Shown piece by piece: positions 6,084 through 64,000 of a DNA stretch of 64,000 nt. Position 1 is the first letter of the stretch, and every line of letters begins with the position of its first letter. This stretch comes from a virus. Position numbers and translations under genes: made by a program. The notes under the pieces are model-generated. The model did not search any database. It was not told the DNA's origin and worked only from the letters and a program-made list of their open reading frames with translations. Location: positions 111,917 through 175,916 of the IMG/VR virus record IMGVR_UViG_3300042382_000268, one strand, 5' to 3'.

Positions 6084-7886
6084 TTAGTTAGCAACTTTGA
6101 TTATTTTTTGTAATTCTGGAAGATAAACATATTCAATTTTACTATGGTATAACGTATGCACTGCATCGTCTAAAGTTTCTACTAAGGGATCTCCACCTAG
6201 ATTAAAACTAGTGTTAAATAATATTGGAACTCCTGTCTTTTCATAAAAGTCATTAATTAAATTGTAATAATGATAATTTTGTTCAGAAGTTACTGTTTGA
6301 ATTCTGCAAGTATCATCAACATGAATAATACTTGGAATTTTTTCTTTAACACCCGGTTGGCAATTTACAGCATACATCATATAAGGACTGTCTTCCATTC
6401 CTTTTAAATCAAACCATTCATGAACATGCTCTTGTAAGATTGAACCGGCAAACGGTCTAAAGTATTCTCTGTTTTTAATTTGATTAACAAAGTCTTTTCC
6501 ATCTTCATATGTTGGATTAAACATTAATGATCTGTTACCTAATGCACGAGGTCCATTTTCAGATCTTCCTTGGAACATTGCAACGATATTTTTATTTAAA
6601 AGCAAATCAACTACTGTACTATTATCGGCATCTAATATTTCAGCTCCATACCAGTTAACATATTTTTGCAAATCGTCATCTGTATAATTGTATTCAAATC
6701 CAAGATATAATCTGTTTTTAGTATGATCAACATGCATGTGAGGATATTTTCTGTTAAACACTAATAATGCTGCACCTATTGCAGTTCCTGCATCATTACT
6801 AATTGGTTCAACATATAATTTAATACCTTCTTCTGCTAATTGGTCTAAGTATGAATAATTTGCTACGCAATTTAATCCATAACCCCCACTTAACACTACT
6901 TGCTTTTGACCAGTTTTCTTAACAGCTGATCGAATTAAATCTAATACTTGCTGTTGTGTTTCAGACTGGCATGCCCATGCTAAATCTCTTCTATTATCAT
7001 TTAATGTAACATCAGTTTCTGGCAAATCATTAAGATAATCGTACAACATATAGTTTACAGATGCGCCATTTGGATATGTTGGAACAATAATATTTCTATT
7101 TGCTAATGCTGCAATAGAAGTATCATCAAATAATTTAGGAATTTTATCAGTTGCTTTACCATACGGAGCTAATCCCATAGTTTTACCAGCTTCAATAGAT
7201 GACCATCCGCAATATTGTGTTACTGCTTCATAAACTTTTGTAATGCCTGCTCGATCAGTAATTAATGCTTCATGGGTAGATTCCGGTTCTTCATACATTC
7301 CGCTATCAAACTCTGTAACTAATGCACCTGGTAACGGACCTCTAACACCAATATGTTTATACACAGTTTTAAACCATGTAGGATATGCACAGTCAAAAAC
7401 TGATTCAGTTTCCCAACCAGTCATTTGTTCACCATTGTTTGAAGTTAATGTAATAAACGTACCTGCACCGTCTACAATTACTGCAGTTGCTTCTCTAAAT
7501 CCAGATCTATAAAATGCACATGCAGCATGCAATTTATGATGATAATGACTTAGATCAATCACTTGAGGGTGTTGATACATATTCTCAGTACGACTAATTA
7601 ATCCTAACTTTCTTGCAAGACCAGTATAAATATCTTCACCAGTAAAATCAACTCTTCCAGCAGTATCTGATAATTTTTGAGTATGTGCAATTACAATAAA
7701 ATCTAATCTATCGGTATAATCTAAAATTTTTAAAAATGCAGCAAACGGCCCGCCGTCATACTTATTACGACTAACTCGTTCTTCTTCAATACTAAAAACA
7801 ATTTCACCGTTTTTAGTTAAGCATACACTACTATTATGTCCTCTAGCGATGCCTGCAATCCAAATATCTTTGTTTATTAAATTCAT
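6084..7886 (-). CDS. Carbamoyltransferase, full-length NodU/CmcH/TobZ family
   Basis: 600 residues, the normal length for this two-domain family. The N-terminal Kae1-like domain begins WIAGIARGHNSSVCL, has a metal/ATP-binding HHKLHAA near residue 113 and SGGYGLNCVAN near 335. The C-terminal YrdC-like carbamoyl-transfer domain carries GRSENGPRALGNRS near residue 442. The family uses carbamoyl phosphate and ATP to carbamoylate a hydroxyl on a sugar or small molecule. It is the last gene of a minus-strand trio with an SGNH-like protein and a GT9-like glycosyltransferase (3-base gap to the next gene), so a glycan or LPS, or possibly a glycosylated virion protein, is the likely target (inference). 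Confidence 0.88.
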   Translation of the reverse strand: MNLINKDIWIAGIARGHNSSVCLTKNGEIVFSIEEERVSRNKYDGGPFAAFLKILDYTDRLDFIVIAHTQKLSDTAGRVDFTGEDIYTGLARKLGLISRTENMYQHPQVIDLSHYHHKLHAACAFYRSGFREATAVIVDGAGTFITLTSNNGEQMTGWETESVFDCAYPTWFKTVYKHIGVRGPLPGALVTEFDSGMYEEPESTHEALITDRAGITKVYEAVTQYCGWSSIEAGKTMGLAPYGKATDKIPKLFDDTSIAALANRNIIVPTYPNGASVNYMLYDYLNDLPETDVTLNDNRRDLAWACQSETQQQVLDLIRSAVKKTGQKQVVLSGGYGLNCVANYSYLDQLAEEGIKLYVEPISNDAGTAIGAALLVFNRKYPHMHVDHTKNRLYLGFEYNYTDDDLQKYVNWYGAEILDADNSTVVDLLLNKNIVAMFQGRSENGPRALGNRSLMFNPTYEDGKDFVNQIKNREYFRPFAGSILQEHVHEWFDLKGMEDSPYMMYAVNCQPGVKEKIPSIIHVDDTCRIQTVTSEQNYHYYNLINDFYEKTGVPILFNTSFNLGGDPLVETLDDAVHTLYHSKIEYVYLPELQKIIKVAN

Positions 7887-31271: not shown

Positions 31272-32198
31272 ATGGGTAAAAGTCTTGACGGTGTTTTAAC
31301 AAAAAAAGCACATAAAACTGAACGATTTGAAGAACAACAGATTATTGATTTACAAATGTGCTCTGATCCAGCAGTTGGGTATCTTTATTTCTCAAGACAC
31401 TTCTTTCACATTCAGCATTCAGTAAAAGGTAAATTATTATTTGAACCATTTGATTATCAAGTTAACTTGTTAAATTGTTATCATGCACATCGGTTTAATA
31501 TTAATATGTTACCTCGCCAAAGTGGTAAAACAACCTGTGCATCTGCGTACTTGTTATGGTTTGCAATGTTTCATCCAGATCAAACTATTCTAATTGCAGC
31601 GCACAAATATACTGGTGCTCAAGAGATTATGCAACGTATACGATACGGATACGAACTATGTCCGGACTTCTTACGTGCAGGGGTAGTAAGTTATAATAAA
31701 GGGTCTATGGAGTTTGATAACGGTTCTCGTATTGTAAGTCAAACTACTACTGGTACTACAGGACGAGGTATGTCTATTTCGTTATTGTATTGCGATGAGT
31801 TTGCGTTCTTACAACCTAACATTGCTGAAGAATTTTGGACTTCTATATCACCCACACTAGCAACTGGTGGACGTTGTATTATTACATCTACACCAAATAG
31901 TGACGAAGATCAATTTGCTACTATATGGAAAGAAAGTCAACAGTTTTTTGACGAGTTTGGCAATGAGAAAGCAGACAAAGTTGGCATTAACGGTTTTTCT
32001 GGATTTAGATCAGATTGGTGGGATCATCCAGATCGTGACGATGCATGGAAACAAGAAGAGCTTGGTCGTATAGGTGAGGAAAAATTTAGACGTGAATACG
32101 GTTGTATTGTGCATGATTCAGTTGTAACTGTTAAATGGCCATCTGGAAAAATTGAAAAACTAACAATGGGCGATATTATGCGATTATTAAGTTCATAG
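31272..32198 (+). CDS. 17: Large terminase (gp17) N-terminal half fused to N-terminal split-intein fragment
   Basis: 308 residues. Residues 1-277 are the packaging ATPase domain: DYQVNLLN adenine-binding region, Walker A PRQSGKTT (~81-88), Walker B LLYCDEF (~171-177), coupling motif STPNS near 213. After FRREYG the protein switches to intein: Cys278 begins a 31-residue N-intein (block A, CIVHDSVVTV) that ends at a stop codon. The nuclease half is encoded separately at 32970. Function therefore requires protein trans-splicing with that product to make a ~530-residue gp17, the motor that pumps DNA into the head. The domains, stop codon and intein blocks are seen. Splicing activity is inferred. 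Confidence 0.9.
   Translation: MGKSLDGVLTKKAHKTERFEEQQIIDLQMCSDPAVGYLYFSRHFFHIQHSVKGKLLFEPFDYQVNLLNCYHAHRFNINMLPRQSGKTTCASAYLLWFAMFHPDQTILIAAHKYTGAQEIMQRIRYGYELCPDFLRAGVVSYNKGSMEFDNGSRIVSQTTTGTTGRGMSISLLYCDEFAFLQPNIAEEFWTSISPTLATGGRCIITSTPNSDEDQFATIWKESQQFFDEFGNEKADKVGINGFSGFRSDWWDHPDRDDAWKQEELGRIGEEKFRREYGCIVHDSVVTVKWPSGKIEKLTMGDIMRLLSS
32103..32195 (+). other. N-intein fragment (31 residues) of split TerL intein
   Basis: It begins with the nucleophile Cys (codon 32103-32105) and contains only splicing block A. This very short N-part is the hallmark of the atypical TerL split inteins (AceL-TerL type, about 25-residue N fragment), unlike the ~90-residue N-parts of ordinary split inteins. Confidence 0.82.
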
Positions 32199-32211
32199 TA
32201 TATGACGAAAT

Positions 32212-32220
32212 GATAAATAC
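32212..32220 (+). promoter_or_regulatory. Late-type promoter box GATAAATAC before the homing endonuclease gene
   Basis: It lies between the terminase N-half stop and the endonuclease ATG at 32225, four bases from it. Suggests the inserted endonuclease gene carries its own late promoter. Confidence 0.5.
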
Positions 32221-32224
32221 TAGC

Positions 32225-33004
32225 ATGTATTATGTATATATTTATAAAACCCCAATTAACATCACAGTAAGTTATATGAGTATTTTAGCAAATCAACCGT
32301 TTTATATTGGGAAGGGCCACGGTAGGCGATATAAAGATCATTTATCAGAAACTGCAGAAACTACGTGTAATCATTTAAAAGTTGCGGTAATTTCTAGATT
32401 AGTCGCGCAAAATCTAACTCCGGTTATAGAAATGTATCAAACTGAGTTAACAGATGCTGCAGCAAAGGCTCTTGAAACTGATCTGATTAACCAGTACGGC
32501 CGATTAATTGATCATGCCGGCCCGTTAACAAATAAAACACTAGGCGGAGATGGGTGTACTGGATTTAAACATACTGAAGAAACCAAACAATTAATGAGTA
32601 TTCAGAGAAAAGGAACTATTCCATATAATAAAGGTATCGCTCGTCCAGGAATTGGTGGACGTACATTAGGTACTAAATGGTCTGAATCTGAAAGAGAAAC
32701 TCAACTGTTAGTTAGAAGCCAACCAGGTTATTATGAGTTTAACAAATGTCCTATAAGAGCAAAAAAAATAAGTGACTCCAAAAAAGGAAAACCTGGATCA
32801 GCAAAAGACAAACAATGGTTTAATAATGGAGTTATTGAGACCTATAAAGATATATGCCCTGACGGATTTGTTAAGGGAAGACTTCCTAGATTACAAATAT
32901 CAAAGAGAGGCATGTGTTGGTATAATAATGGAGTAATTAACAAACAATTTAAAGAAGGAACAGAACTTGATGGATTTACACGCGGAAGAATTAATAAAAA
33001 ATAA
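32225..33004 (+). CDS. GIY-YIG homing endonuclease, free-standing between terminase halves
   Basis: The start at 32225 (MYYVYIYK) is preferred because the alternative ATG at 32210 would overlap the late box; 259 residues. The GIY-YIG module shows YVYIY at residues 3-7 and FYIGKG at ~27-32, followed by RRYKDHL. DNA-binding NUMOD-type elements follow: KKISDSKKGKPGS, and two copies of W-[FY]-NNGVI....F/Y....G-F..GR near the C-terminus. Such enzymes cut intein- or intron-less alleles and spread the insertion by gene conversion. The 3' end overlaps the start of the C-intein gene by 35 bases in another frame. Confidence 0.88.
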   Translation: MYYVYIYKTPINITVSYMSILANQPFYIGKGHGRRYKDHLSETAETTCNHLKVAVISRLVAQNLTPVIEMYQTELTDAAAKALETDLINQYGRLIDHAGPLTNKTLGGDGCTGFKHTEETKQLMSIQRKGTIPYNKGIARPGIGGRTLGTKWSESERETQLLVRSQPGYYEFNKCPIRAKKISDSKKGKPGSAKDKQWFNNGVIETYKDICPDGFVKGRLPRLQISKRGMCWYNNGVINKQFKEGTELDGFTRGRINKK

Positions 33005-33317
33005 GTTAGGATTAACAGTGCTAACTGACACCGGCTGGAGCAAGTTTGACGGAATCTTAGTTAAAGGTGTTAAAAAGATACTTCATGTAACTACACAACG
33101 TCATTCACTTAAAAGCACTCCTGATCATAAATATTTTCTTAATGGGTTTAAACCGATAGAAGGTAGATTATTATTGCCTAAACAAAAAATTTTAGTTAAT
33201 GGCAAACTTGATAATGTCGTGTCTGTTAAGTGGCTGTTAGATGAAGAACCAGTATACGATCTGTTTAATGTTGAACAGAATCACAGGTATTATGCAAATA
33301 ACGTTCTAATCAAAAAT
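32970..33317 (+). other. C-intein fragment (116 residues) of split TerL intein
   Basis: Contains splicing blocks B, F and G while block A lies in the separate N gene. Total split intein is 147 residues with no endonuclease domain of its own. The junction is Asn (33315-33317) followed by the extein Cys codon at 33318. Confidence 0.82.
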
Positions 33318-34079
33318 TGCGAATTTTTAGTATACGACGAAACTCTTATAAACAGTTTGAAGTTAGTTGAGCTGTATGGTAAAGAACCTATGATGAAAAT
33401 GGGGCAAGTGCGATGGTATAAAACACCAACTGCAGGTAATTTATATTTAATTGCATTAGATCCTAGTTTAGGTACAGGAGGCGACTATTCGGCTATTACT
33501 GTTTTTGAATTACCATCAATGGTGCAAGTTGCAGAATGGCATCATAACATTACTCCTATACAAGGACAGGTAAAGTTATTTAGAGATATATTATTATATG
33601 TACAAGACGAAATTGGTGCTGATCAATATAATTCAATATATTGGTCGGTAGAAAATAATACAGTAGGCGAAAGCGCATTAGTAGTAATTGACAACTTAGG
33701 AGAAGAAACATTTCCGGGATTATTTGTGAGCGAGCCGGGCAGAAAAGGGCATGTTCGAAAATTCCGCAAAGGATTTAATACAACCTTTAATAATAAAATT
33801 GCTGCATGTTCAAAATTAAAATTTTTTGTTGAAGAAGATAAGATGGTAATTAATAGCAAACCGTTAATAACCGAATTAAAATCTTTCATTGCACATGGAA
33901 TTAGTTTTAAAGGTAAACCGGGACAACACGACGATTTAGTAGCAGCATTATTATTAATAGTAAGAATGATTGATATACTAGCAGAATGGGATCCTTTAGT
34001 ATTTGAAAAAATGCGGATTGAAGATCGAATTGAGGACTGGGAAGCACCTCTACCAATATTTGTTTCCTCTAATATGTGA
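32970..34079 (+). CDS. 17: C-terminal split-intein fragment fused to large terminase nuclease half
   Basis: The ATG at 32970 with an AAGGA site ten bases upstream is preferred over a TTG three bases earlier; 369 residues. Residues 1-116 are C-intein: block B STPDH, block F YDLFNVEQNHRYYANNV and the splice junction LIKN|C. Asn116 and the +1 Cys are present, but the usual penultimate His is Lys. From Cys117 the C-extein CEFLVYDETLI runs 253 residues through the RNase H-like nuclease: ALDPSLGTGGDYSAI (metal Asp), SVENNTVGE, and GQHDDLVAALLLIV. Trans-splicing with the 31272 product would restore gp17. A TGA stop ends just before the next gene. Confidence 0.9.
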   Translation: MDLHAEELIKNKLGLTVLTDTGWSKFDGILVKGVKKILHVTTQRHSLKSTPDHKYFLNGFKPIEGRLLLPKQKILVNGKLDNVVSVKWLLDEEPVYDLFNVEQNHRYYANNVLIKNCEFLVYDETLINSLKLVELYGKEPMMKMGQVRWYKTPTAGNLYLIALDPSLGTGGDYSAITVFELPSMVQVAEWHHNITPIQGQVKLFRDILLYVQDEIGADQYNSIYWSVENNTVGESALVVIDNLGEETFPGLFVSEPGRKGHVRKFRKGFNTTFNNKIAACSKLKFFVEEDKMVINSKPLITELKSFIAHGISFKGKPGQHDDLVAALLLIVRMIDILAEWDPLVFEKMRIEDRIEDWEAPLPIFVSSNM

Positions 34080-48707: not shown

Positions 48708-48817
48708 AAAAACTTTTAGAGATTATACTACGACCATACACTAAGTGGAAAGAAGATCGTGCATACAATAAACGTATTGAAGAACTCCGTAAACGAGACC
48801 CGTTTATATACAAATGA
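48704..48817 (+). CDS. Small basic 37-residue protein
   Basis: Starts in the primase stop (ATGA) with an AAGAGG site, and its stop overlaps the next start (ATGA), so it is firmly embedded in the operon. Sequence reads KKLLEIILRPYTKWKEDRAY, then NKRIEELRKRDPFIYK: a short amphipathic, basic helix. It looks like a conserved T4-type marine phage microprotein rather than chance. Function unknown; possibly linked to the primosome by position. Confidence 0.65.
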   Translation: MKKLLEIILRPYTKWKEDRAYNKRIEELRKRDPFIYK

Positions 48818-49755
48818 TTAGTTGGGGCATAAACGCATTAAATCATGGCTCTAGCATAGCAGTTATTACTGATAAGCTAGAGTTCTTCCAAATTGATAAT
48901 TCTAACGATATACTTGAATCAAGTATAGATCTTGCACTAATGCACGGAAGACCTGATCGTATCTATTGGTACGAAAATCCATGGATTAAGAAAGGTCGAC
49001 AACTATATGCAGGACAATACAGTACAGCATTTGATATGTCATCATTACCGACTGCGCATTTAAAGAAGGTCGGCCTTAGTCATATTCCACTTACGTATAC
49101 TAAACACCATGCTAGTCATGCTGCAGCCGGTTATTATACCAGTCCGTTTACTGATGCTGCAGTAGTGGTGTTAGATGCAATTGGTGAGTTTGAATGTGCT
49201 ACTATTTGGCACGGCAAAGGTGATAACTTAACAAAAGTTTGGTCAGCATCTTATCCAAATAGTTTAGGTTTATTCTACTCAGCATTTACACAACTAATTG
49301 GGTTTACGCCAATACAACAAGAGCATCTATTACAATTGTCTGCAGAAGTTGGAGACCCGGCTAGATATTATAATACAGTAAAGAGTTATTTTAATGGAAC
49401 AGTTAAACTTACTCGCAACTTACACAGAGGTGTACTAGATTGGCCACATCCTATAAAGAACTTACAAGATCAAACTGATATCGCAGCAGCAGTACAAAAG
49501 GTATTTGAAGAACAACTATATGGAGTTCTTGAGGTTGCATTTCAACTCACAAAGTCGTATAATTTAGTATACATGGGCGGCTGTGCAATGAACAGTTCAG
49601 CTAATAAAAAATCGTTACACAATTGGGAAAAAGTTTGGAGTTTACCTAATCCAGGTGACCCTAGTAGTGCAATTGGTGCAATATTGTGGCACACAAAACA
49701 ACGGCTTGTTTGGGGTAATAATACTTCTAAACATATTGAAATTAAAGGATATTAA
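48814..49755 (+). CDS. Single-domain carbamoyltransferase-like (Kae1/ASKHA) protein
   Basis: 313 residues, half the normal NodU/CmcH length. It keeps the N-terminal Kae1-like ATPase domain: SWGINALNHGSSIAVI, HHASHAAAGYY (~99-109), VVVLDAIGEFE, YMGGCAMNS near 267 and PGDPSSAIGAILW. The C-terminal YrdC-like transferase domain found in the 6084 protein is missing entirely. Without it the protein may hydrolyse carbamoyl phosphate or ATP only, act with a partner, or modify tRNA or nucleotides in another way. Located between primase and helicase genes, an unexpected place for a glycan enzyme. Confidence 0.78.
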   Translation: MISWGINALNHGSSIAVITDKLEFFQIDNSNDILESSIDLALMHGRPDRIYWYENPWIKKGRQLYAGQYSTAFDMSSLPTAHLKKVGLSHIPLTYTKHHASHAAAGYYTSPFTDAAVVVLDAIGEFECATIWHGKGDNLTKVWSASYPNSLGLFYSAFTQLIGFTPIQQEHLLQLSAEVGDPARYYNTVKSYFNGTVKLTRNLHRGVLDWPHPIKNLQDQTDIAAAVQKVFEEQLYGVLEVAFQLTKSYNLVYMGGCAMNSSANKKSLHNWEKVWSLPNPGDPSSAIGAILWHTKQRLVWGNNTSKHIEIKGY

Positions 49756-58345: not shown

Positions 58346-58505
58346 TTATTTATTTTACTTTACATTGCACAATAAACGTGCTATAATATACATATATCCG
58401 CTCCGCTATCAGCGGGGCCACCGGCCCATCCGGTACGCTAAAAGCGTTACCCACTTACCTCAGCTTACCAAACCTCTCCATATACAATCAACTCACTCCG
58501 TTCGT

Positions 58506-58607
58506 CTATAAACCTCTAAGCTCTTTCCATCGCTTAACCTTTTGCGCCATACGCGCCGCCTGTTCACCGGGTGTCATCATTACACGCAATTTGGTTGCGC
58601 TGGACAT
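58506..58607 (-). CDS. 33-residue basic ORF in early array
   Basis: Start at 58607 (an in-frame ATG at 58637 would add ten residues). It reads SSATKLRVMMTPGEQAARMAQ, then KVKRWKELRGL: a short basic amphipathic helix. No Shine-Dalgarno, as in several other units here, but a good sigma70 promoter lies ~60 bases upstream (58668-58696). The composition looks coding. Function unknown. Confidence 0.45.
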   Translation of the reverse strand: MSSATKLRVMMTPGEQAARMAQKVKRWKELRGL

Positions 58608-58667
58608 ATTGTACTTGTGTAATTTGTGTGTTAGCATAGTTATTATATGTTGTTGTTAAAAAAATAT

Positions 58668-58696
58668 ATTATAGCATTGCGTGTAACACAATGCAA
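58668..58696 (-). promoter_or_regulatory. Sigma70 promoter, minus strand (TTGCAT-N17-TATAAT)
   Basis: -35 at 58691-58696, -10 at 58668-58673. Serves the 33-residue ORF. Confidence 0.8.
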
Positions 58697-58743
58697 GCAT
58701 TTTTTTAATTAATGTATCCGATGGAGGCGAAGCCGACATGTAT

Positions 58744-58773
58744 ATTATACCACCTTTCCCCACCACCTGTCAA
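58744..58773 (-). promoter_or_regulatory. Sigma70 promoter, minus strand (TTGACA-N18-TATAAT)
   Basis: -35 TTGACA at 58768-58773, -10 TATAAT at 58744-58749. Second of three tandem minus-strand promoters between 58.67 and 58.85 kb. Confidence 0.8.
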
Positions 58774-58820
58774 CCCCTAAATAGTTACAGCGGGGCCTGA
58801 ATCCCCGGGGCTATAGTTAT

Positions 58821-58849
58821 ATTATACTACCTCTAAGATGGTATGTCAA
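58821..58849 (-). promoter_or_regulatory. Perfect sigma70 promoter, minus strand (TTGACA-N17-TATAAT)
   Basis: -35 at 58844-58849, -10 at 58821-58826. No gene starts within the next 180 bases on this strand; the predicted RNA begins with a GC-rich inverted repeat containing one CAGCGGGGCC copy, so it may make a short RNA. Confidence 0.85.
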
Positions 58850-59031
58850 GTTCTTTTTTCCATTAAAAAATTTGCGCTGTAAGCGTTTAAAATTTTGTAC
58901 TGCTATAGTTGCATTGCATTGCTTAGTATATAAACGCGCATTGTGTCCGCGTTAAAACGCAAATTTTAGCATTGCAAATTGTACTTGCTAAACGTATTTT
59001 TTAAAAACAAGTAGCAATCCTAAATACCTTA
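58850..59031. other. Gene-free stretch between early cassettes
   Basis: AT-rich with scattered GCG words (TTGCGCTGTAAGCG, ACGCGCATTG). Contains TACTTGC / CAAGTAGCA inverted segments. No ORF with a start context is visible on either strand. Confidence 0.4.
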
Positions 59032-59052
59032 CAGCGGGGCCTGCTGATACGC

Positions 59053-59252
59053 AGGTGGCAGATGGATACAACTATATGTCTCCGGTATCCTGGTGGTTCG
59101 GTTATTCAGAGCATTCAAGACCATGATGACCGGTTAACCGATCTAATATGCGAGACAAGGGGAAGCCCGGTCCATCGCATAATGGATTACGGGCTAAGGG
59201 ACTACCTATGAAAATTGGTCGGTGAGCAAATTCTACAACCATCTGCCCACCT
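59053..59252. ncRNA. Candidate structured RNA (~200 nt) with long closing stem and pseudoknot
   Basis: The ends pair over 13 bp with one bulge (AGGTGG-CAGATGG, 59053-59065, with CCATCTG-C-CCACCT, 59239-59252). Inside: GATAC/GTATC (59065-59089), CGGTTA/TAACCG (59099-59104 with 59135-59140), AGCCCG/CGGGCT (59164-59169 with 59190-59195) enclosing TCCAT/ATGGA. The loop of the last hairpin (CGCATA, 59176-59181) pairs with TATGCG at 59147-59152, a pseudoknot. CAGCGGGGCC copies flank it on both sides. The strand is not settled; one U-G pair favours plus. The family is not recognised. Confidence 0.5.
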
Positions 59253-59291
59253 AGGTCTTTAGTCTTTTACAGCGGGGCCTTTCTGCAGGTC

Positions 59292-59369
59292 TTATTTCTT
59301 GTTGCGTCTTAACACTCGGCGACATGCAATTTTTTTGCTAGTGGTAGCGCGGTCGGATCTTCTTGCCAT
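59292..59369 (-). CDS. 25-residue highly basic peptide gene
   Basis: ATG at 59369 preceded by CAGGAGAAC, the best ribosome site in the array, and by a sigma70 promoter at 59404-59432. The peptide MARRSDRATTSKKIACRRVL + RRNKK has 11 Lys/Arg among 25 residues and one acidic residue. Strong expression signals argue for a real microprotein. Its charge suggests nucleic-acid or RNA-polymerase binding (inference). A CAGCGGGGCC copy follows its stop. Confidence 0.65.
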   Translation of the reverse strand: MARRSDRATTSKKIACRRVLRRNKK

Positions 59370-59403
59370 CTTGTTCTCCTGTGTAGTTACTTAACTTGCA
59401 TAT

Positions 59404-59432
59404 AGTATAACACAATGCTACACTATATGCAA
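59404..59432 (-). promoter_or_regulatory. Sigma70 promoter, minus strand (TTGCAT-N17-TATACT)
   Basis: -35 at 59427-59432, -10 at 59404-59409; drives the basic peptide gene. Confidence 0.85.
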
Positions 59433-59445
59433 GCGTTATTTATTA

Positions 59446-59622
59446 CTATTTTATCAGCGCGTCAAACGCTCCGCAAAACCCTGCAAACGCTATTGTTATC
59501 GGAGTTGCCAAGAGCATCCACATTGTCGCGTCCACCATGAAGTTCATTACTCCATATTGTGTGTTGCGTGCTTGCGCTTGTTTGTTTAAAAAATTAGTAA
59601 CTGTTTGTTGTTTAGTTTGCAT
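59446..59622 (-). CDS. Small membrane-anchored early protein (58 residues)
   Basis: The start at 59622 fits the type I leader (ACTACAGCGTGC a few bases before the ATG); in-frame starts further up fall inside the leader. N-terminal QTKQQTVTNFLNKQAQARNTQYG is polar, then MNFMVDATMWMLLATPITIAFAGFCGAF gives one membrane segment, ending DALIK. A single-pass inner-membrane protein, possibly for superinfection exclusion or host takeover. Own promoter at 59659-59687. Confidence 0.6.
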   Translation of the reverse strand: MQTKQQTVTNFLNKQAQARNTQYGVMNFMVDATMWMLLATPITIAFAGFCGAFDALIK

Positions 59623-59658
59623 AGTAGTTTGCACGCTGTAGTTGTTTAAGTAGTGCAT

Positions 59659-59687
59659 AGTATAGCACAATGCTATACTATGCGCAA
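59659..59687 (-). promoter_or_regulatory. Sigma70 promoter, minus strand (TTGCGC-N17-TATACT)
   Basis: -35 at 59682-59687, -10 at 59659-59664. The spacer carries an inverted copy of the -10 region (AGTATAGCATTGTGCTATACT). Confidence 0.82.
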
Positions 59688-59703
59688 GTGTTATTTTAAG
59701 TTA

Positions 59704-60051
59704 TTACAACCCCGAGCCGCATAAGCAGTTATACACAAACTCAGCGTCCTGTAATGCCACGTTGTTTATGTAATCCACTAAGTCCTTATGCTCCTCTACT
59801 TCCTCTACAAACGCGTGTACCGCAGCATCATCGTTCCACAAGTCCTCATGTGCATTGTAGTGTGTATTATATATTGTTACTATTTTTGCAATAATGTGCA
59901 CCGGATGCTCAGTTGTGCCCCACTCCTCCGCATAGCCCTCGTCCGCCAACATAAACACTACACTTGTTATGCTGGGTGTTAGCGGGTACTTGCTTGTGTT
60001 AGCGTTATTTGTGTTAATTTTGTTTGTTGTTGCTGTAGTTAAATTTTGCAT
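59704..60051 (-). CDS. Early paralog family member 1 (acidic, 115 residues)
   Basis: The start at 60051 (MQNLTTATTNK) fits the type I leader. Shares with the 61254 and 61764 genes the blocks NTSKYPLTPS, ADEGYAEEWGTTEHPVHI, IYNTHYNAHEDLWNDDAAVHAFVEEVEEHKDLVDYINNVALQDAEFVYNCLCGSGL. All-helical, acidic, with a C-terminal Cys pair. Not a known family to me. The triplication in one array suggests selection for dosage or diversification, for example against host defences or for host shutoff. Confidence 0.72.
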   Translation of the reverse strand: MQNLTTATTNKINTNNANTSKYPLTPSITSVVFMLADEGYAEEWGTTEHPVHIIAKIVTIYNTHYNAHEDLWNDDAAVHAFVEEVEEHKDLVDYINNVALQDAEFVYNCLCGSGL

Positions 60052-60078
60052 AATAAGCACGCTGTAGTAGTGTTAACA

Positions 60079-60135
60079 GTTAAGCGTTATTGCTTAACTT
60101 GTGCATAGTATAACAAACTAGTTTGCTATTGTAAA
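60079..60135 (-). promoter_or_regulatory. Early promoter plus stem-loop leader
   Basis: -35 TTTACA (60130-60135), N17, -10 TATACT (60107-60112), then a stem-loop GTTAAGC-AATAAC-GCTTAAC (60079-60098) and ACTACAGCGTGC before the ATG. Nearly identical to the unit at 62139-62194. Confidence 0.88.
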
Positions 60136-60197
60136 GCGTTTTTTTATTTTATTTTTTGCTTGCATTTTACTTTTATTTGTGTTATACTATATAATAA

Positions 60198-60224
60198 AGC
60201 TCGGGCATGCCTAACACCCGAGCT
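60198..60224 (-). terminator. Terminator, minus strand
   Basis: AGCTCGGG / CCCGAGCT stem with an 11-base loop, followed on the minus strand by TTTATTATATAG. Ends the 60248 unit. Confidence 0.72.
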
Positions 60225-60247
60225 ATCTACAACCAACTACTTCACAC

Positions 60248-60445
60248 TTATCTCATATCACTATCACCGGCTACGTCACAGCGTGTCGCGTAACCAGTAA
60301 GTACCGTTTCATTCAATCTATCTAGCAATCTTACTTCAACTGCCCGGGCGGCTTGGCACTCGGCTTCTGTTTGGTATATCAATGTGTTATCAATTTCCTG
60401 TGCCCCAATAAACATAAACACCTTTAACACATATAATTTTAACAT
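60248..60445 (-). CDS. Small early protein with possible signal peptide (65 residues)
   Basis: The start at 60445 has CGGAGCG upstream. The N-terminus LKLYVLKVFMFIGAQ is short and hydrophobic with Lys, like a signal peptide or anchor. The rest, EIDNTLIYQTEAECQAARAVEVRLLDRLNETVLTGYATRCDVAGDSDMR, has two Cys that could pair outside the membrane. Could act in the periplasm or inner membrane. Function unknown. Confidence 0.62.
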   Translation of the reverse strand: MLKLYVLKVFMFIGAQEIDNTLIYQTEAECQAARAVEVRLLDRLNETVLTGYATRCDVAGDSDMR

Positions 60446-60472
60446 TTTAAACGCTCCGGCTATTTGTTGTTA

Positions 60473-60527
60473 GTTAGCGTTATTGCTAACTTGTGCATAG
60501 TATAGCAAACTATTAAACTATATGCAA
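60473..60527 (-). promoter_or_regulatory. Early promoter plus stem-loop leader
   Basis: -35 TTGCAT (60522-60527), N17, -10 TATACT (60499-60504), stem-loop GTTAGC-AATAAC-GCTAAC (60473-60490), then a GGAGCG ribosome site (type II leader). Confidence 0.86.
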
Positions 60528-60542
60528 GTGTTTTGTTTTCGG

Positions 60543-60716
60543 TTAGTCCACTAATGCACTTGCTCTAAGATCCACAAAGTTCGCATACTTCATTGTGTCT
60601 TTTGTTTCTCTGCGCTCACGTAACAATGCAGTCCGGGCACGCTCGACTTCTCTGCGGGTCTGTACACCAATTAGTCTTGCGCTCAACACTGCCGTATATT
60701 CTTGTACCGGTTTCAT
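60543..60716 (-). CDS. Small charged helical early protein (57 residues)
   Basis: ATG at 60716 with TTAGGAGC upstream. KPVQEYTAVLSARLIGVQTR, then REVERARTALLRERRETKDTMKYANFVDLRASALVD: Arg/Glu-rich, one or two helices. No own promoter is seen; it lies 63 bases downstream of the 60780 gene on the same strand and is probably co-transcribed, with a hairpin (60754-60769) in between. Function unknown. Confidence 0.65.
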   Translation of the reverse strand: MKPVQEYTAVLSARLIGVQTRREVERARTALLRERRETKDTMKYANFVDLRASALVD

Positions 60717-60753
60717 TCTATGCTCCTAATGGTTTCGAAAAGTCGTTGTTGTC

Positions 60754-60769
60754 AGCACGTCCATGTGCT
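60754..60769 (-). promoter_or_regulatory. Short hairpin at early unit 3' end
   Basis: AGCAC-ATGGAC-GTGCT on the minus strand just after the 60780 gene. Related hairpins lie at 61227-61244 (CGGCAC/GTGCCG), 61737-61754 (GAGCAC/GTGCTC) and 62265-62280 (GCAC/GTGC), each after an early gene. They form a conserved set with loops ATGGAC or AGGGAA. No T-run. Confidence 0.65.
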
Positions 60770-60779
60770 CTGTGTTGCC

Positions 60780-61079
60780 TTACAGTCCGTACATTTCAGC
60801 TACGCTGTTTGCCACACGTCCGTCGTTACCCCATTGTACTTTAATGCAACCCGGATGTTCATTGCCCAGTGCTGCCAACTTAGCAAGTGCCAATTCCCAG
60901 TTGTTTAGTTTGTCTACTGTTTTCGGAGCGTCAGCACTTGTAAAGTAGTTAGCTGGTGGTACCTTACGTTCCGGAACATTGCTTTTACTTGTTTTCACTT
61001 TACCGCCTGCTTCCAAAAACGCTTGTACTGCATTGTTTGTTGCTGTGTTTTTTGCTTGTTTGTTTGTATTAGTAAACAT
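60780..61079 (-). CDS. Early protein with basic GG-K-T-S-K motif (99 residues)
   Basis: The start at 61079 (MFTNTNKQAK) follows a type I leader. AVQAFLEAGGKVKTSKSNVPERKVPP (residues ~16-41) resembles RVAMFLATGGAIKTTKTGRRGRTTV of the 62729 gene, so they share a domain. The C-terminal half ELALAKLAALGNEHPGCIKVQWGNDGRVANSVAEMYG looks like a small alpha/beta domain. The basic loop suggests nucleic-acid binding (inference). Downstream is the 60543 gene. Confidence 0.65.
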   Translation of the reverse strand: MFTNTNKQAKNTATNNAVQAFLEAGGKVKTSKSNVPERKVPPANYFTSADAPKTVDKLNNWELALAKLAALGNEHPGCIKVQWGNDGRVANSVAEMYGL

Positions 61080-61106
61080 AATTTGCACGCTGTAGTAGTG
61101 TTAACA

Positions 61107-61161
61107 GTTAGCGTTATTGCTAACTTGTACATATTATAGCAAACTAAGCACAAGTTAGCAA
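61107..61161 (-). promoter_or_regulatory. Early promoter plus stem-loop leader
   Basis: -35 TTGCTA (61156-61161), N17, -10 TATAAT (61133-61138), stem-loop GTTAGC-AATAAC-GCTAAC (61107-61124), type I end. Confidence 0.88.
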
Positions 61162-61253
61162 ATGGTATTTTTGAGTATTGTTTCCATTGTGTCCGCGCGT
61201 GTGTACACATAACAGCGGGGCCTATTCGGCACTTCCCTGTGCCGTTGTATCCG

Positions 61254-61595
61254 TTATAGTCCCGATCCGCATAAGCAGTTATACACAAACTCAGCATCCT
61301 GTAATGCCACATTGTTTATGTAATCCACTAAGTCCTCGTGCTCCTCTACTTCCTCTACAAACGCTTGTACCGCAGCATCATCGTTCCACAAGTCATCATG
61401 TGCTTCATAATGTCTGTTGTATATTGTTACCATTTGCGCAATTATATGCACCGGATGTTCAGTAGTGCCCCACTCCTCCGCATAGTTCTCGTCCGCCAAC
61501 ATAAACACTGTACTTGTTACGCTGGGAGTTAGCGGGTACTTGCTTGTGTTTGCGTTTGCTGTGTTAATTTTTGTTGCTGTAGTAGTATTTTGCAT
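61254..61595 (-). CDS. Early paralog family member 2 (113 residues)
   Basis: The start at 61595 (MQNTTTATKINT) fits the type I leader; the frame runs further up through the leader. It is nearly the same as the 59704 protein from NTSKYPLTPSVTS to LCGSGL, with small changes (VTIYNRHYEAHDDLW). The duplication is recent, and the 3' DNA is also alike. Followed by a GGCAC/GTGCC hairpin and a CAGCGGGGCC copy. Function unknown. Confidence 0.72.
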   Translation of the reverse strand: MQNTTTATKINTANANTSKYPLTPSVTSTVFMLADENYAEEWGTTEHPVHIIAQMVTIYNRHYEAHDDLWNDDAAVQAFVEEVEEHEDLVDYINNVALQDAEFVYNCLCGSGL

Positions 61596-61617
61596 AGTTA
61601 GCACGCTGTAGTTATAA

Positions 61618-61671
61618 GTTAGCTTAATTGCTAACTTGTACATATTATAGCACGTTTAAACATTTTGTAAA
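61618..61671 (-). promoter_or_regulatory. Early promoter plus stem-loop leader
   Basis: -35 TTTACA (61666-61671), N16, -10 TATAAT (61644-61649), stem-loop GTTAGC-AATTAA-GCTAAC (61618-61635), type I end. Confidence 0.85.
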
Positions 61672-61763
61672 GCGTTTTTTTAAGTTTTGTTTTCGCTGTT
61701 ACCATACGCGTGTACACATAGCAGCGGGGCCTTTCCGAGCACGTCCATGTGCTCTGTGTTATC

Positions 61764-62111
61764 TTACAAGCCCGAGCAACATAAGCAATCATACACAAAC
61801 ACTGTGTTCTGTAATGCCACATTGTTTATGTAATCCACTAACTTCGCATTGTCCTCAACTTCCTCTATACACGCTTGCATCGCAGCATCATCGTTCCACA
61901 AGTCATCATGTGCTTCGTAATGTCTGTTGTATATCTCTGCTATCTTTAATACTATGTGTGTCGGATGTGTCGTTGTGCTCCACTCCTCCGCAAAGCTCGC
62001 ATCCGCCAACAGTGCCAGCACACTTGTTTTGCTCGGATAGTACCCGGGCAATTTGCTTGTGTTTACGTTTTGTGTGTTAATTTTTGTTGCTGTAGTAGTA
62101 TTAGTTTGCAT
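61764..62111 (-). CDS. Early paralog family member 3 (115 residues)
   Basis: The start at 62111 (MQTNTTTATKINT) is chosen. More diverged than the other two: LPGYYPSKTSVLALLADASFAEEWSTTTHPTHIVLKIAEIYNRHYEAHDDLWNDDAAMQACIEEVEDNAKLVDYINNVAL, ending VFVYDCLCCSGL. The invariant centre (HYxAHxDLWNDDAA) is the likely functional core. Followed by a GAGCAC/GTGCTC hairpin and a CAGCGGGGCC copy, like member 2. Confidence 0.72.
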   Translation of the reverse strand: MQTNTTTATKINTQNVNTSKLPGYYPSKTSVLALLADASFAEEWSTTTHPTHIVLKIAEIYNRHYEAHDDLWNDDAAMQACIEEVEDNAKLVDYINNVALQNTVFVYDCLCCSGL

Positions 62112-62138
62112 AATAAGCACGCTGTAGTAGTGTTAACA

Positions 62139-62194
62139 GTTAAGCGTTATTGCTTAACTTGTACATAGTATAACACGTTTAAACATTTTGTAAA
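62139..62194 (-). promoter_or_regulatory. Early promoter plus stem-loop leader
   Basis: -35 TTTACA (62189-62194), N16, -10 TATACT (62167-62172), stem-loop GTTAAGC-AATAAC-GCTTAAC (62139-62158), type I end. Confidence 0.87.
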
Positions 62195-62227
62195 GCGGTA
62201 TTTTAGAGTATTGTTTCCGACATAACC

Positions 62228-62238
62228 GGGGGGGGGGG
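62228..62238 (+). repeat. Run of 11 G
   Basis: An 11-G homopolymer followed by TGGTCGGTCGGTC, between the 61764 unit's promoter and the next gene's end. Very unusual in this AT-rich DNA. Length may vary between clones or be a sequencing artefact. Confidence 0.8.
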
Positions 62239-62291
62239 TGGTCGGTCGGTCTGTCAGATTGCTTGGCACTTCCCTGTGCTCGATATATCAG

Positions 62292-62663
62292 TTATGCCAT
62301 TATGCTCGCTACTTCAGTGTATCGTTGTTTCAATCTTTCGATCATATGGAGTAAGTCGACATTAAAGACTAAGTCATATACATCGCTTTCCGTTGTACTC
62401 ACTATACCAATTGCACTCGTGTAATGGAGTTGTTCGACTATAGTCGTTACAGTCGTTACATCTATTTTCAATTGTTTCGATACTTCAGCTAGTAACACTT
62501 TCGAAACTGTCTTGCGATCTCTGTCCGCTAGTCTATGAAACCCTTTTGCCAACATCCTTGCAACATCGGTATTTTGGCGTATCGTTGCACCAATGCTATC
62601 GTTATGCTCGTGTAACTCGTTTAAAAACTTAATATGGTTTCTCAATACTGTTTGGATAATCAT
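62292..62663 (-). CDS. Possible winged-helix DNA-binding early protein (123 residues)
   Basis: Start at 62663 with TGGAGCG upstream. Helical N-terminus (VLRNHIKFLNELHEHNDSIGATIRQN). Residues ~50-95, RKTVSKVLLAEVSKQLKIDVTTVTTIVEQLHYTSAIGIV, read as a helix-turn-helix of the winged type. The C-terminus is DVYDLVFNVDLLHMIERLKQRY. Could be an early transcription regulator. No own clear promoter; it is 66 bases downstream of the 62729 gene and probably shares its transcript. Confidence 0.6.
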   Translation of the reverse strand: MIIQTVLRNHIKFLNELHEHNDSIGATIRQNTDVARMLAKGFHRLADRDRKTVSKVLLAEVSKQLKIDVTTVTTIVEQLHYTSAIGIVSTTESDVYDLVFNVDLLHMIERLKQRYTEVASIMA

Positions 62664-62728
62664 TATGCGCTCCAGTTAATCAGTTAAGTACGCGCATACT
62701 CGATATATGCGCGTGTAAACAGCGGGGT

Positions 62729-62995
62729 CTATTGGCGTGCTTTGATTGCCGATTGCACCTGCTTGTTCAACAGCCCAATTGCCGCTAGCTCCTCTTTAGC
62801 TTGTTCCCATGTGTATCGTTGTTTCTCTACTACAACTACGCGGGGAGTATGGACTTGTGATACTGTAGTGCGTCCTCTGCGTCCTGTTTTAGTTGTTTTA
62901 ATTGCTCCTCCGGTTGCTAAGAACATTGCCACGCGAGCCGCTAACTCCGCTGCTTGTTGTTGTTTAACTTCGTTGTTCATAATACCTGTTGCCAT
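62729..62995 (-). CDS. Early protein with basic GG-I-K-T-T-K motif (88 residues)
   Basis: The start at 62995 has CGGAGCG upstream and overlaps the previous stop (TAATG). AAELAARVAMFLATGGAIKTTKTGRRGRTTVSQV resembles the 60780 protein's core. The C-terminal half (RYTWEQAKEELAAIGLLNKQVQSAIKARQ) is helical. Basic overall, so nucleic-acid binding is likely (inference). Ends at a CAGCGGGGTC copy. Part of a three-gene transcript from the 63190 promoter. Confidence 0.65.
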   Translation of the reverse strand: MATGIMNNEVKQQQAAELAARVAMFLATGGAIKTTKTGRRGRTTVSQVHTPRVVVVEKQRYTWEQAKEELAAIGLLNKQVQSAIKARQ

Positions 62996-63156
62996 TATAC
63001 ACGCTCCGCTTTATCGTTAATGTCAGTTTCTTCAGTTTGCTCACAATCCCAACATGGTTCAAGCTCATCTGTTTCCATGTTGTATAGTACAGTCAAGTCC
63101 CCACACGTAGTGCAATACGCGCGTAGTGGGTAAGTGTTTTTGTATTGTACTTGCAT
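62995..63156 (-). CDS. Zinc-ribbon early protein (53 residues)
   Basis: The start at 63156 (MQVQYKNTYPLRAYC) is chosen from the leader position. Two pairs of cysteines, YCTTCG (15-18) and PCWDCE (~37-40), make a treble-clef/zinc-ribbon knuckle, then an acidic tail (TEETDINDKAERV). Such mini-ribbons bind nucleic acid or protein partners such as RNA polymerase. Overlaps the next start. Confidence 0.68.
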   Translation of the reverse strand: MQVQYKNTYPLRAYCTTCGDLTVLYNMETDELEPCWDCEQTEETDINDKAERV

Positions 63157-63189
63157 AATTTTTACACGCTGTTTTGTTAATGTGTGCAT

Positions 63190-63218
63190 ATTATAGCATT
63201 GTAACACGCGCATTGCAA
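63190..63218 (-). promoter_or_regulatory. Sigma70 promoter, minus strand (TTGCAA-N17-TATAAT)
   Basis: -35 at 63213-63218, -10 at 63190-63195. The leader lacks the GTTAGC stem-loop but has ACAGCGTG before the ATG. Drives 62995, 62729 and probably 62292. Confidence 0.86.
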
Positions 63219-63261
63219 GTAGTTTGTTAACCGCAATGCGCGTGTACATAAGCAGCGGGGC

Positions 63262-63678
63262 CTATACGGTAGTTACGAGCAACAAGTTGTCCAACACATC
63301 CGCTTTAGCTCTGTATACCATGTTGCCGTGTCTCGTATGCTCAATTACAATCCCATTTGCCTCACACCACAAGTCCAAACGCGCTGCTCTTAAGCTCACT
63401 TTATCTTTAAACTGTGGTTTGTTGACTTTAACGGCAATAAACTTTTTTCTGTAGTTCAAAAACACGTTGCTCTGTATATACACATCCTCAATGTGTGCTA
63501 ACAACGCTTCCCCTGCGCTCAATTGCACTAAGCTATACAAGCTCTCATTCTCAGCGTCTCTGCGTTTAATATCCTCTAAGCACACGTAAGCTGGAAGTTT
63601 GACGTCATCCGATGTGTGTGATACAGCGTGTACAATAGCAGTAGCTGTGTTTTTGAGTAATTTAGTAGTTGTTGACAT
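63262..63678 (-). CDS. Early protein, unknown (138 residues)
   Basis: Start at 63678 with TCGGAGCG upstream (type II). STTTKLLKNTATAIVHAVSHTSDDVKLPAYVCLEDIKRRDAENESL, then SAGEALLAHIEDVYIQSNVFLNYRKKFIAVKVNKPQFKDKVSLRAARLDLWCEANGIVIEHTRHGNMVYRAKADVLDNLL. The second half resembles a small helix-beta domain (winged-helix-like, residues ~90-135). The stop codon abuts a CAGCGGGGCC copy. Function unknown. Confidence 0.65.
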   Translation of the reverse strand: MSTTTKLLKNTATAIVHAVSHTSDDVKLPAYVCLEDIKRRDAENESLYSLVQLSAGEALLAHIEDVYIQSNVFLNYRKKFIAVKVNKPQFKDKVSLRAARLDLWCEANGIVIEHTRHGNMVYRAKADVLDNLLLVTTV

Positions 63679-63714
63679 ATGATACGCTCCGAAAGTTATG
63701 TTAAGTTTTAAACA

Positions 63715-63769
63715 GTTAGCTGTTTTGCTAACTTGTACATATTATAGCAAACTAAGTACAAGTTAGCAA
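63715..63769 (-). promoter_or_regulatory. Early promoter plus stem-loop leader
   Basis: -35 TTGCTA (63764-63769), N17, -10 TATAAT (63741-63746), stem-loop GTTAGC-AAAACA-GCTAAC (63715-63732). The upstream DNA repeats GTACAAGTTAGCAA as in the 61107 unit. Confidence 0.87.
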
Positions 63770-63783
63770 GTGATATTTTTGAA

Positions 63784-63972
63784 CTATAGTTCCACTAGCT
63801 CGCCACGTGCTACTGCGTCCGCAGCTTCTAGTTCCTCTTTATAGAACTTGTTGATAGCATTGTTTGTTTCGAGATACGATTTGGAGTTTTTGGCTTGTGT
63901 ACGCAATTGACGTGTTAATGCGTTGATGTATTTGATACGCGCGGCGCTTGTGATGTAAAGTATTTTTTGCAT
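63784..63972 (-). CDS. Small basic early protein (62 residues)
   Basis: The start at 63972 fits the type I leader (ACTATAGCGTGTATATT-ATG). QKILYITSAARIKYINALTRQLRTQAKNSKSY, then LETNNAINKFYKEELEAADAVARGELVEL: an amphipathic basic helix then an acidic one. Its promoter lies past the window edge; the leader GTTAGC stem half begins at the last bases. Function unknown. Confidence 0.62.
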   Translation of the reverse strand: MQKILYITSAARIKYINALTRQLRTQAKNSKSYLETNNAINKFYKEELEAADAVARGELVEL

Positions 63973-64000
63973 AATATACACGCTATAGTTATAAGTTAGC

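Follow-up and report, generated by a model that had tools for sequence, protein, structure and literature searches.

Promoter early stem-loop (PeSL) cassettes are said to have been described by Arbiol in 2010 and Comeau in 2014 in the phages RB49/phi1, PST/T4 and nt-1/KVP40. They are reportedly transcribed early and packaged in virions as PeSL mini-circles, and their stem-loops are said to have a terminator U-tract. A haloarchaeal virus, HGTV-1, carries a repeated promoter-like motif and an inverted repeat ahead of most open reading frames (ORFs) in one genome arm, and these motifs have been proposed to act like PeSLs (PMC3950731). Here we describe an array of small genes with repeated promoters and leader stem-loops at the end of a virus record, IMG/VR IMGVR_UViG_3300042382_000268. 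The window, by which we mean the whole stretch of DNA analysed, is the final 64 kb (64,000 nucleotides (nt); positions 111,917 to 175,916) of this 175,916-base record and stops at the contig end, so that the array is truncated in it. We consider it probable, if well short of certain, that this array tail consists of self-contained expression cassettes with a 5′-leader hairpin, in which shared promoter-leaders serve as recombination patches in a PeSL-like manner.

A first-pass annotation of the sequence had proposed at least eight minus-strand sigma70 promoters with spacers of 16–17 bp. We found 12 sigma70-type promoters on that strand between 58.5 and 64.0 kb, with spacers of 16–18 bp and, in the majority, a TG-extended −10. 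The six near-identical GTTA(A)GC-N6-GC(T)TAAC stem-loops of the same annotation were also recovered: exactly six complete GTTAGC-N6-GCTAAC or GTTAAGC-N6-GCTTAAC hairpins lie on the minus strand of this region, against shuffled expectations of 0.00 and 0.01 per 64 kb for the two patterns, and the contig end truncates a seventh (64000–63975). Two traits of PeSLs, a strong promoter resembling those of host sigma70 and a stem-loop adjoining it, are thus present, the latter in six complete leaders with a chance expectation near zero. The promoters of the E-F-G operon and of genes L (59622), M (59369) and N (58637) lack a complete hairpin. The units of the array are as follows.

First bases of the −35 elements, minus strand: 63769, 63218, 62194, 61671, 61161, 60527, 60135, 59687, 59432, 58849, 58773, 58696
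63784–63972, minus: gene A, 62 aa; leader cut by contig end, 3′ arm at 63975–64000
63741–63769, minus: promoter of gene D, TTGCTA-17-TATAAT, extended −10; 12-bp dyad across the −10
63715–63732, minus: leader stem-loop of D, GTTAGC-AAAACA-GCTAAC
63262–63678, minus: gene D, 138 aa, kept in both relatives
63190–63218, minus: promoter of operon E-F-G, without stem-loop
62292–63156, minus: genes E (63156–62995), F (62995–62729) and G (62663–62292), a conserved operon
62167–62194, minus: promoter of gene H1, TTTACA-16-TATACT
62139–62158, minus: leader stem-loop of H1, GTTAAGC-AATAAC-GCTTAAC
61764–62111, minus: gene H1, 115 aa, alpha-helical protein family
61644–61671, minus: promoter of gene H2
61618–61635, minus: leader stem-loop of H2, GTTAGC-AATTAA-GCTAAC
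61254–61598, minus: gene H2
61133–61161, minus: promoter of gene I; 10-bp dyad across the −10
61107–61124, minus: leader stem-loop of I, GTTAGC-AATAAC-GCTAAC
60543–61079, minus: genes I (61079–60780) and J (60716–60543)
60499–60527, minus: promoter between J and K, missing from the J-K junction of both relatives
60473–60490, minus: leader stem-loop between J and K, missing in both relatives
60248–60445, minus: gene K, 65 aa
60198–60224, minus: hairpin resembling an intrinsic terminator, after K and ahead of the H3 promoter
60107–60135, minus: promoter of gene H3
60079–60098, minus: leader stem-loop of H3, identical to that of H1
59704–60051, minus: gene H3, chimera of H1-type leader and H2-like coding sequence (CDS)
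59659–59687, minus: promoter of gene L; 13-bp dyad, without stem-loop
59446–59622, minus: gene L
59404–59432, minus: promoter of gene M; 12-bp dyad, stem-loop incomplete here and present in the relative L008
59292–59369, minus: gene M, 25 aa, kept in both relatives
58668–58696, minus: promoter of gene N (58637–58506)

The start of the stem is nearly constant, 9 nt past the −10, and therefore lies about 1–2 nt from the predicted mRNA 5′ end; a stabilising 5′ stem-loop would be expected roughly 0–3 nt from the actual start. Stems of at least 6 bp starting 3–12 nt past the −10 accompany 6 of 15 promoters, compared with 0.27 in shuffles. A stem followed by 5 T within 8 nt would be scored as terminator-like, and no window hairpin of the six qualifies; by sequence, the leader stem-loop, a 6–8 bp stem at the predicted 5′ end with no U-tract, does not have the intrinsic-terminator character of a PeSL. 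Because the conserved leader block frequently continues into ATGCAA, many cassette proteins begin with Met-Gln.

The core genes read in the window include tail sheath, terminase, UvsX and helicase, among others. The best matches of UvsX (62–68%) are to Phosso/CBB-type jumbo phages and that of the terminase (57%) is to PA5oct, and by these genes the carrier is a T4-superfamily jumbo phage near Phosso, CBB and PA5oct. Carriers of the array fall into three lineages: the window phage, of which L007 is a second contig (99.99% identity over 12.4 kb); L008, a 98-kb contig with mostly 70–87% DNA identity to the window in aligned pieces; and the lineage of L011 (372 kb) and L010 (48 kb). A search for a wider family in IMG/VR gave only four records in three lineages, and searches with two further array proteins gave matches only in these same lineages. 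In the 372-kb relative, 38 of the 40 forward TKYTATAMTAT sites (extended −10) lie at about 318–370 kb; in the window record, 10 of the 12 reverse sites lie in the last 6 kb. As the promoter array extends over about 50 kb in that relative, the window holds the array tail only, and the description 'very dense' in the first-pass annotation was an understatement (about 40 extended −10 sites over that distance). Hairpin leaders in the relative are confined to the last part of its array, 364–369 kb.

Leader conservation among relatives, which had been proposed as a check, was found in both of the other lineages. A leader covariance model, R1, was built from 21 leaders of the three phages, which match it by construction; its informative result is that no matches fall outside the array. 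Across 646 kb (three related jumbo-phage records) it gave 24 matches, all within the array and all in the sense orientation save one weak antisense match (E 0.09) over a palindromic leader. The window itself accounts for six strong matches, two weak matches (59413 and 63199) and the truncated seventh leader. The leader stem covaries: 99.3% of cells are paired across the 21 leaders, four of seven stem pairs have two-sided changes, and 0 of 500 shuffles and no slid register equal the stem result. The extra A-T pair of the longer stems is likewise compensated (window H1 and H3, L008 M, L011 R). The motif TAGRCCCCGCTGYTTA, considered as an element that might be widespread among phages, was found in 31 scattered stretches, several of which belong to the known relatives.

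Gene order A-D-E-F-G-H-J-K-L-M-N is common to the three phages and the differences fall at cassette borders, where comparison of gene content, a second proposed check, brought out gained and lost cassettes, one empty site and a chimera of leader and CDS. At J-K the window has a promoter and leader with hairpin, whereas in L008 and L011 the junction is short and lacks a promoter. The space between K and L is taken up by H3 in the window and by an unrelated gene in L008; L011 has no gene there, and its leader drives L directly. Only L008 has one more cassette at A-D, complete with its leader; the promoter half of the L011 leader matches the first L008 leader at 20/23 positions versus 15/23 for the second, and its 3′ half matches the second at 11/11 versus 8/11 for the first. 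Since its halves match different L008 leaders, this case would fit a join within the conserved core; it is suggestive only, because that promoter half is common in the arrays. The H family is present as H1, H2 and H3 in the window, as the H2 type only at that place in L008, and as the H1 type only in L011. From the −10 into codon 3, H3 is identical to H1 at 67 of 68 positions, and its CDS matches H2 at 221/247 versus 196/247 for H1; by these counts H3 is a chimera of an H1-type leader on an H2-like CDS. Insertions, deletions and swaps at the elements, as in PeSLs, are therefore found at three junctions and in the H family, and this comparison supports modular shuffling around the leader.

Several of the promoters are themselves self-complementary. 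In 15 of 85 promoters from the three phages a perfect dyad of 9 bp or more overlaps or passes the −10; when upstream halves were permuted within each genome, the mean was 2.7 and the maximum 7. The arms vary between promoters and complementarity is kept (GCGCATAGT/ACTATGCGC, GCATATAGT/ACTATATGC, GCTAACTTGTAC/GTACAAGTTAGC), and in the window the −10 lies within perfect inverted repeats of differing sequence at 59395–59433, 59657–59687 and 63725–63769. Because RB49 has the same excess in weaker form (4 dyads of at least 8 bp versus 0.45 permuted, maximum 3), such dyads may extend to T4-type early promoters more generally.

The inter-unit short hairpins and repeats noted at first pass correspond to four GCAC-N6-GTGC hairpins and to an array-specific, single-orientation tag, the CAGCGGGGCC repeats. 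CAGCGGGG(C/T)C has eight copies, in one orientation, and none elsewhere in the 176-kb record. The 10-mer GRCCCCGCTG (consensus approximately ATAGRCCCCGCTGTA; window sites 58410–63262) occurs 8 times in the window record, 10 times in the L008 record and 19 times in the L011 record, always in array sense and never outside the array, and its reversed control pattern has 0 occurrences. It often touches or shortly follows the stop codon at a unit end, and a few copies lie inside a promoter spacer or noncoding stretches. CBB, PA5oct, a Vibrio jumbo phage and RB49 have no copy and Phosso has one. The window copies are listed below.

63253–63262, minus: GGCCCCGCTG tag, end of D
62720–62729, minus: GACCCCGCTG tag, end of F
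61722–61731, minus: GGCCCCGCTG tag after H1; hairpin 61754–61739 just upstream
61213–61222, minus: GGCCCCGCTG tag after H2; hairpin 61242–61229 just upstream
59270–59279, minus: GGCCCCGCTG tag after M
59032–59041, minus: GGCCCCGCTG tag
58788–58797, minus: GGCCCCGCTG tag
58410–58419, minus: GGCCCCGCTG tag

Between two of these GGCCCCGCTG tags, the noncoding stretch 59030–59290 folds better than its shuffles (z −2.2) and contains a terminator-like hairpin conserved in relatives; it is a small RNA candidate.

We propose that a T4-superfamily jumbo phage carries a long array of small accessory genes built from cassettes. Each cassette would begin with a sigma70 promoter for host RNA polymerase, in most cases with an extended −10 and presumably used early. 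Next would come a leader, about 65 bp in length, which opens in six cases with a 6–8 bp hairpin 1–2 nt from the predicted 5′ end, and then a body of one to three small genes, often with a 3′ hairpin, the GRCCCCGCTG tag or both. The promoter-leader would be at once an expression module and a homology patch at which phage recombination could join, drop or swap genes, with homologous recombination in the leader core as the putative joining step and joins expected inside TATAMTATGNNCAAGTTAGC. The hairpin most likely shields short early mRNAs against decay at their 5′ end, in the manner of the ompA and papA leaders, and we infer that the hairpins are 5′ mRNA stabilisers that double as recombination handles.

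Several points weigh against this proposal. Promoter activity, transcript starts, timing and RNA stability are predictions; the role of the hairpin could equally be transcriptional, as dyads overlap several promoters, or translational; and the folding energy of single leaders is only modestly below that of shuffles (z −0.9 to −2.3). Most orthologous leaders travel with their own genes and are vertically inherited, and leader identity within a genome (0.89/0.88) is nearly equal to that between genomes (0.87/0.86), so that only a few exchanges are shown. The same near-equality gives no support to concerted evolution of leaders within a genome. Finally, the comparison covers three known lineages, in records that are fragmentary or of uncertain completeness.

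True PeSLs, with stem-loops that terminate transcription of the upstream gene or attenuate, and with recombination as in RB49/phi1, are an unlikely alternative account of the array. The neighbourhood logic of promoter and stem-loop beside small variable genes is the same, an L011 leader (L011:10710–10737) resembles a terminator, with GCTTTTT after its 11-bp stem, a terminator-like hairpin also precedes the H3 promoter (60224–60198), and −10-overlapping dyads occur in RB49 too. However, the window leader hairpins are without U-tracts, and because their stems start at predicted +2/+3 a terminator there would halt its own transcript at about 20 nt; the U-tract terminators found in RB49 lie upstream of the promoter. 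We think it distinctly unlikely, as a further idea, that a self-complementary promoter gives its downstream arm a choice of partners, the promoter arm when the RNA comes from read-through and the leader arm when it is the cassette's own, so that the cassette discriminates between transcripts, and that the single-orientation GRCCCCGCTG marks cassette ends and guides joining or 3′-end formation.

The dyad excess and the near-identity of the leaders would also fit operators, inverted repeats over the −10 and leader that are bound by a phage regulator switching the array as a regulon, with conservation reflecting protein binding. This is very doubtful, as a single sequence-specific operator predicts otherwise than dyads that vary by promoter yet stay self-complementary, and the hairpin changes are compensated. 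Plain tandem duplication, in which recent copying of gene and promoter explains leader similarity and the leader has no special role, fits H1, H2 and H3 as paralogues with similar leaders. It appears highly improbable for the array as a whole: the genes behind the leaders are unrelated to one another (D, H, I, K, A, Y, Z and L), H3 takes its leader from one paralogue while its CDS is closer to another, and a leader sits alone at J-K.

Neither array DNA (DNA search) nor three array protein families (tblastn) matched any of 50,697 phage records, and PHROGs, Pfam and PADLOC gave no convincing match to the array proteins; Rfam had nothing above gathering scores for 56.8–64 kb. The predicted structure of gene D was too poor for use (predicted local distance difference test, pLDDT, 48), and the H family gave a confident alpha-helical model with no fold match. 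Elsewhere, a set of paralogues of about 70 aa, overlapping and arranged in tandem, shares an NNKYDWRLPT-like motif with a weak Lcl_C match; they occur at L008:786-2141 and in L015 and L011:1-2072. With at least 12 copies in the 372-kb relative, they look like a diversified repertoire. About 120 nt of noncoding DNA (window 58870–58990), strongly conserved in all three phages, adjoins on the upstream side two consensus TTGACA/TATAAT promoters (58849 and 58773) and is a possible origin or regulatory region. In the array, poly-C tracts of about 9–14 bases follow GACAGACCGACC or similar sequence at window 62220–62260 and L008:6385, 9880 and 10875. Outside the array, the terminase is apparently split at window 31272–34079: by eye, an intein-like CIVHDSVV... 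segment closes its N part and is followed by an ORF resembling a GIY-YIG homing endonuclease and then by a C-intein-like end (...HRYYANNVLIKNC) joined to the remaining terminase, a possible split intein. Two ORFs (6084–7886 and 48814–49755) are carbamoyltransferase-like, also by eye.

Accessory regions of this kind often hold host-takeover and counter-defence genes. With this locus, modular shuffling of genes in a PeSL-like manner would reach uncultured jumbo phages, here with a promoter array of about 50 kb. The locus captures cassette insertion and leader exchange at the level of sequence, and it brings out two elements, the repeated 5′ hairpin and the array-specific tag, that are open to simple reporter tests of their roles.

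Among other known systems, HGTV-1, likened to the array by description, differs in being an archaeal virus with a TATA-box-like promoter. According to works listed in PMC3997798, 5′-terminal stem-loops stabilise mRNA in the ompA and papA leaders of E. coli; these share with the array a hairpin a few nucleotides from the mRNA 5′ end (here, from the predicted start), and differ in that the array hairpin is repeated ahead of many phage genes. Integron attC sites (RYYYAAC ... GTTRRRY) were rejected by reading: the leader has GTTAGC ... GCTAAC in reversed order, with no RRRY match, and lies upstream of the gene. No repeated leader comparable to that of the array was found in CBB, PA5oct or RB49, in which hairpins accompany 9 of 124 promoters (varied; shuffle 2.3), 7 of 104 (shuffle 3.3) and 1 of 39, respectively. 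The Pseudomonas jumbo phage PA5oct has one leader matching R1 (MK797984:65648-65704; E = 0.012, which could be chance), TATACT-GTGTACAT-GTTAAGTAATTCCGCTTAAC, ahead of the small gene EST35_0131 and between opposite-strand baseplate genes; its sequence is array-like, and it differs in being a single copy with no array found.

The closest comparison is with PeSLs themselves. The 2014 PeSL paper, as cited in PMC4503421, names 'composite conserved promoter-terminator motifs' in its title, and in RB49 a terminator with a U-tract lies directly upstream of 3 of 14 canonical promoters (34481, 45322 and 140913), in agreement with that name; the window hairpins differ from these in place and kind. As far as the parts of the PeSL descriptions available to us go, the array is set apart by stem-loops that are short 5′-leader hairpins without a U-tract, near-identical between cassettes and accompanied by the array-specific GRCCCCGCTG tag. 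Because they have no U-tract and start 1–2 nt from the predicted 5′ end, the hairpins are not classical PeSL terminators, and because the terminator feature was looked for and not found, the array is not classed as a PeSL. The first-pass view of the locus as an independent PeSL-like version is supported in part, by the leader conservation, the shuffling and the T4-superfamily setting; the terminator U-tract ascribed to PeSLs was not found, and few exchanges are shown. With strong sigma70 promoters, an adjacent stem-loop and small accessory genes that are gained, lost and swapped in a T4-superfamily phage, the evolutionary behaviour of the array is, judged by sequence comparison, PeSL-like.

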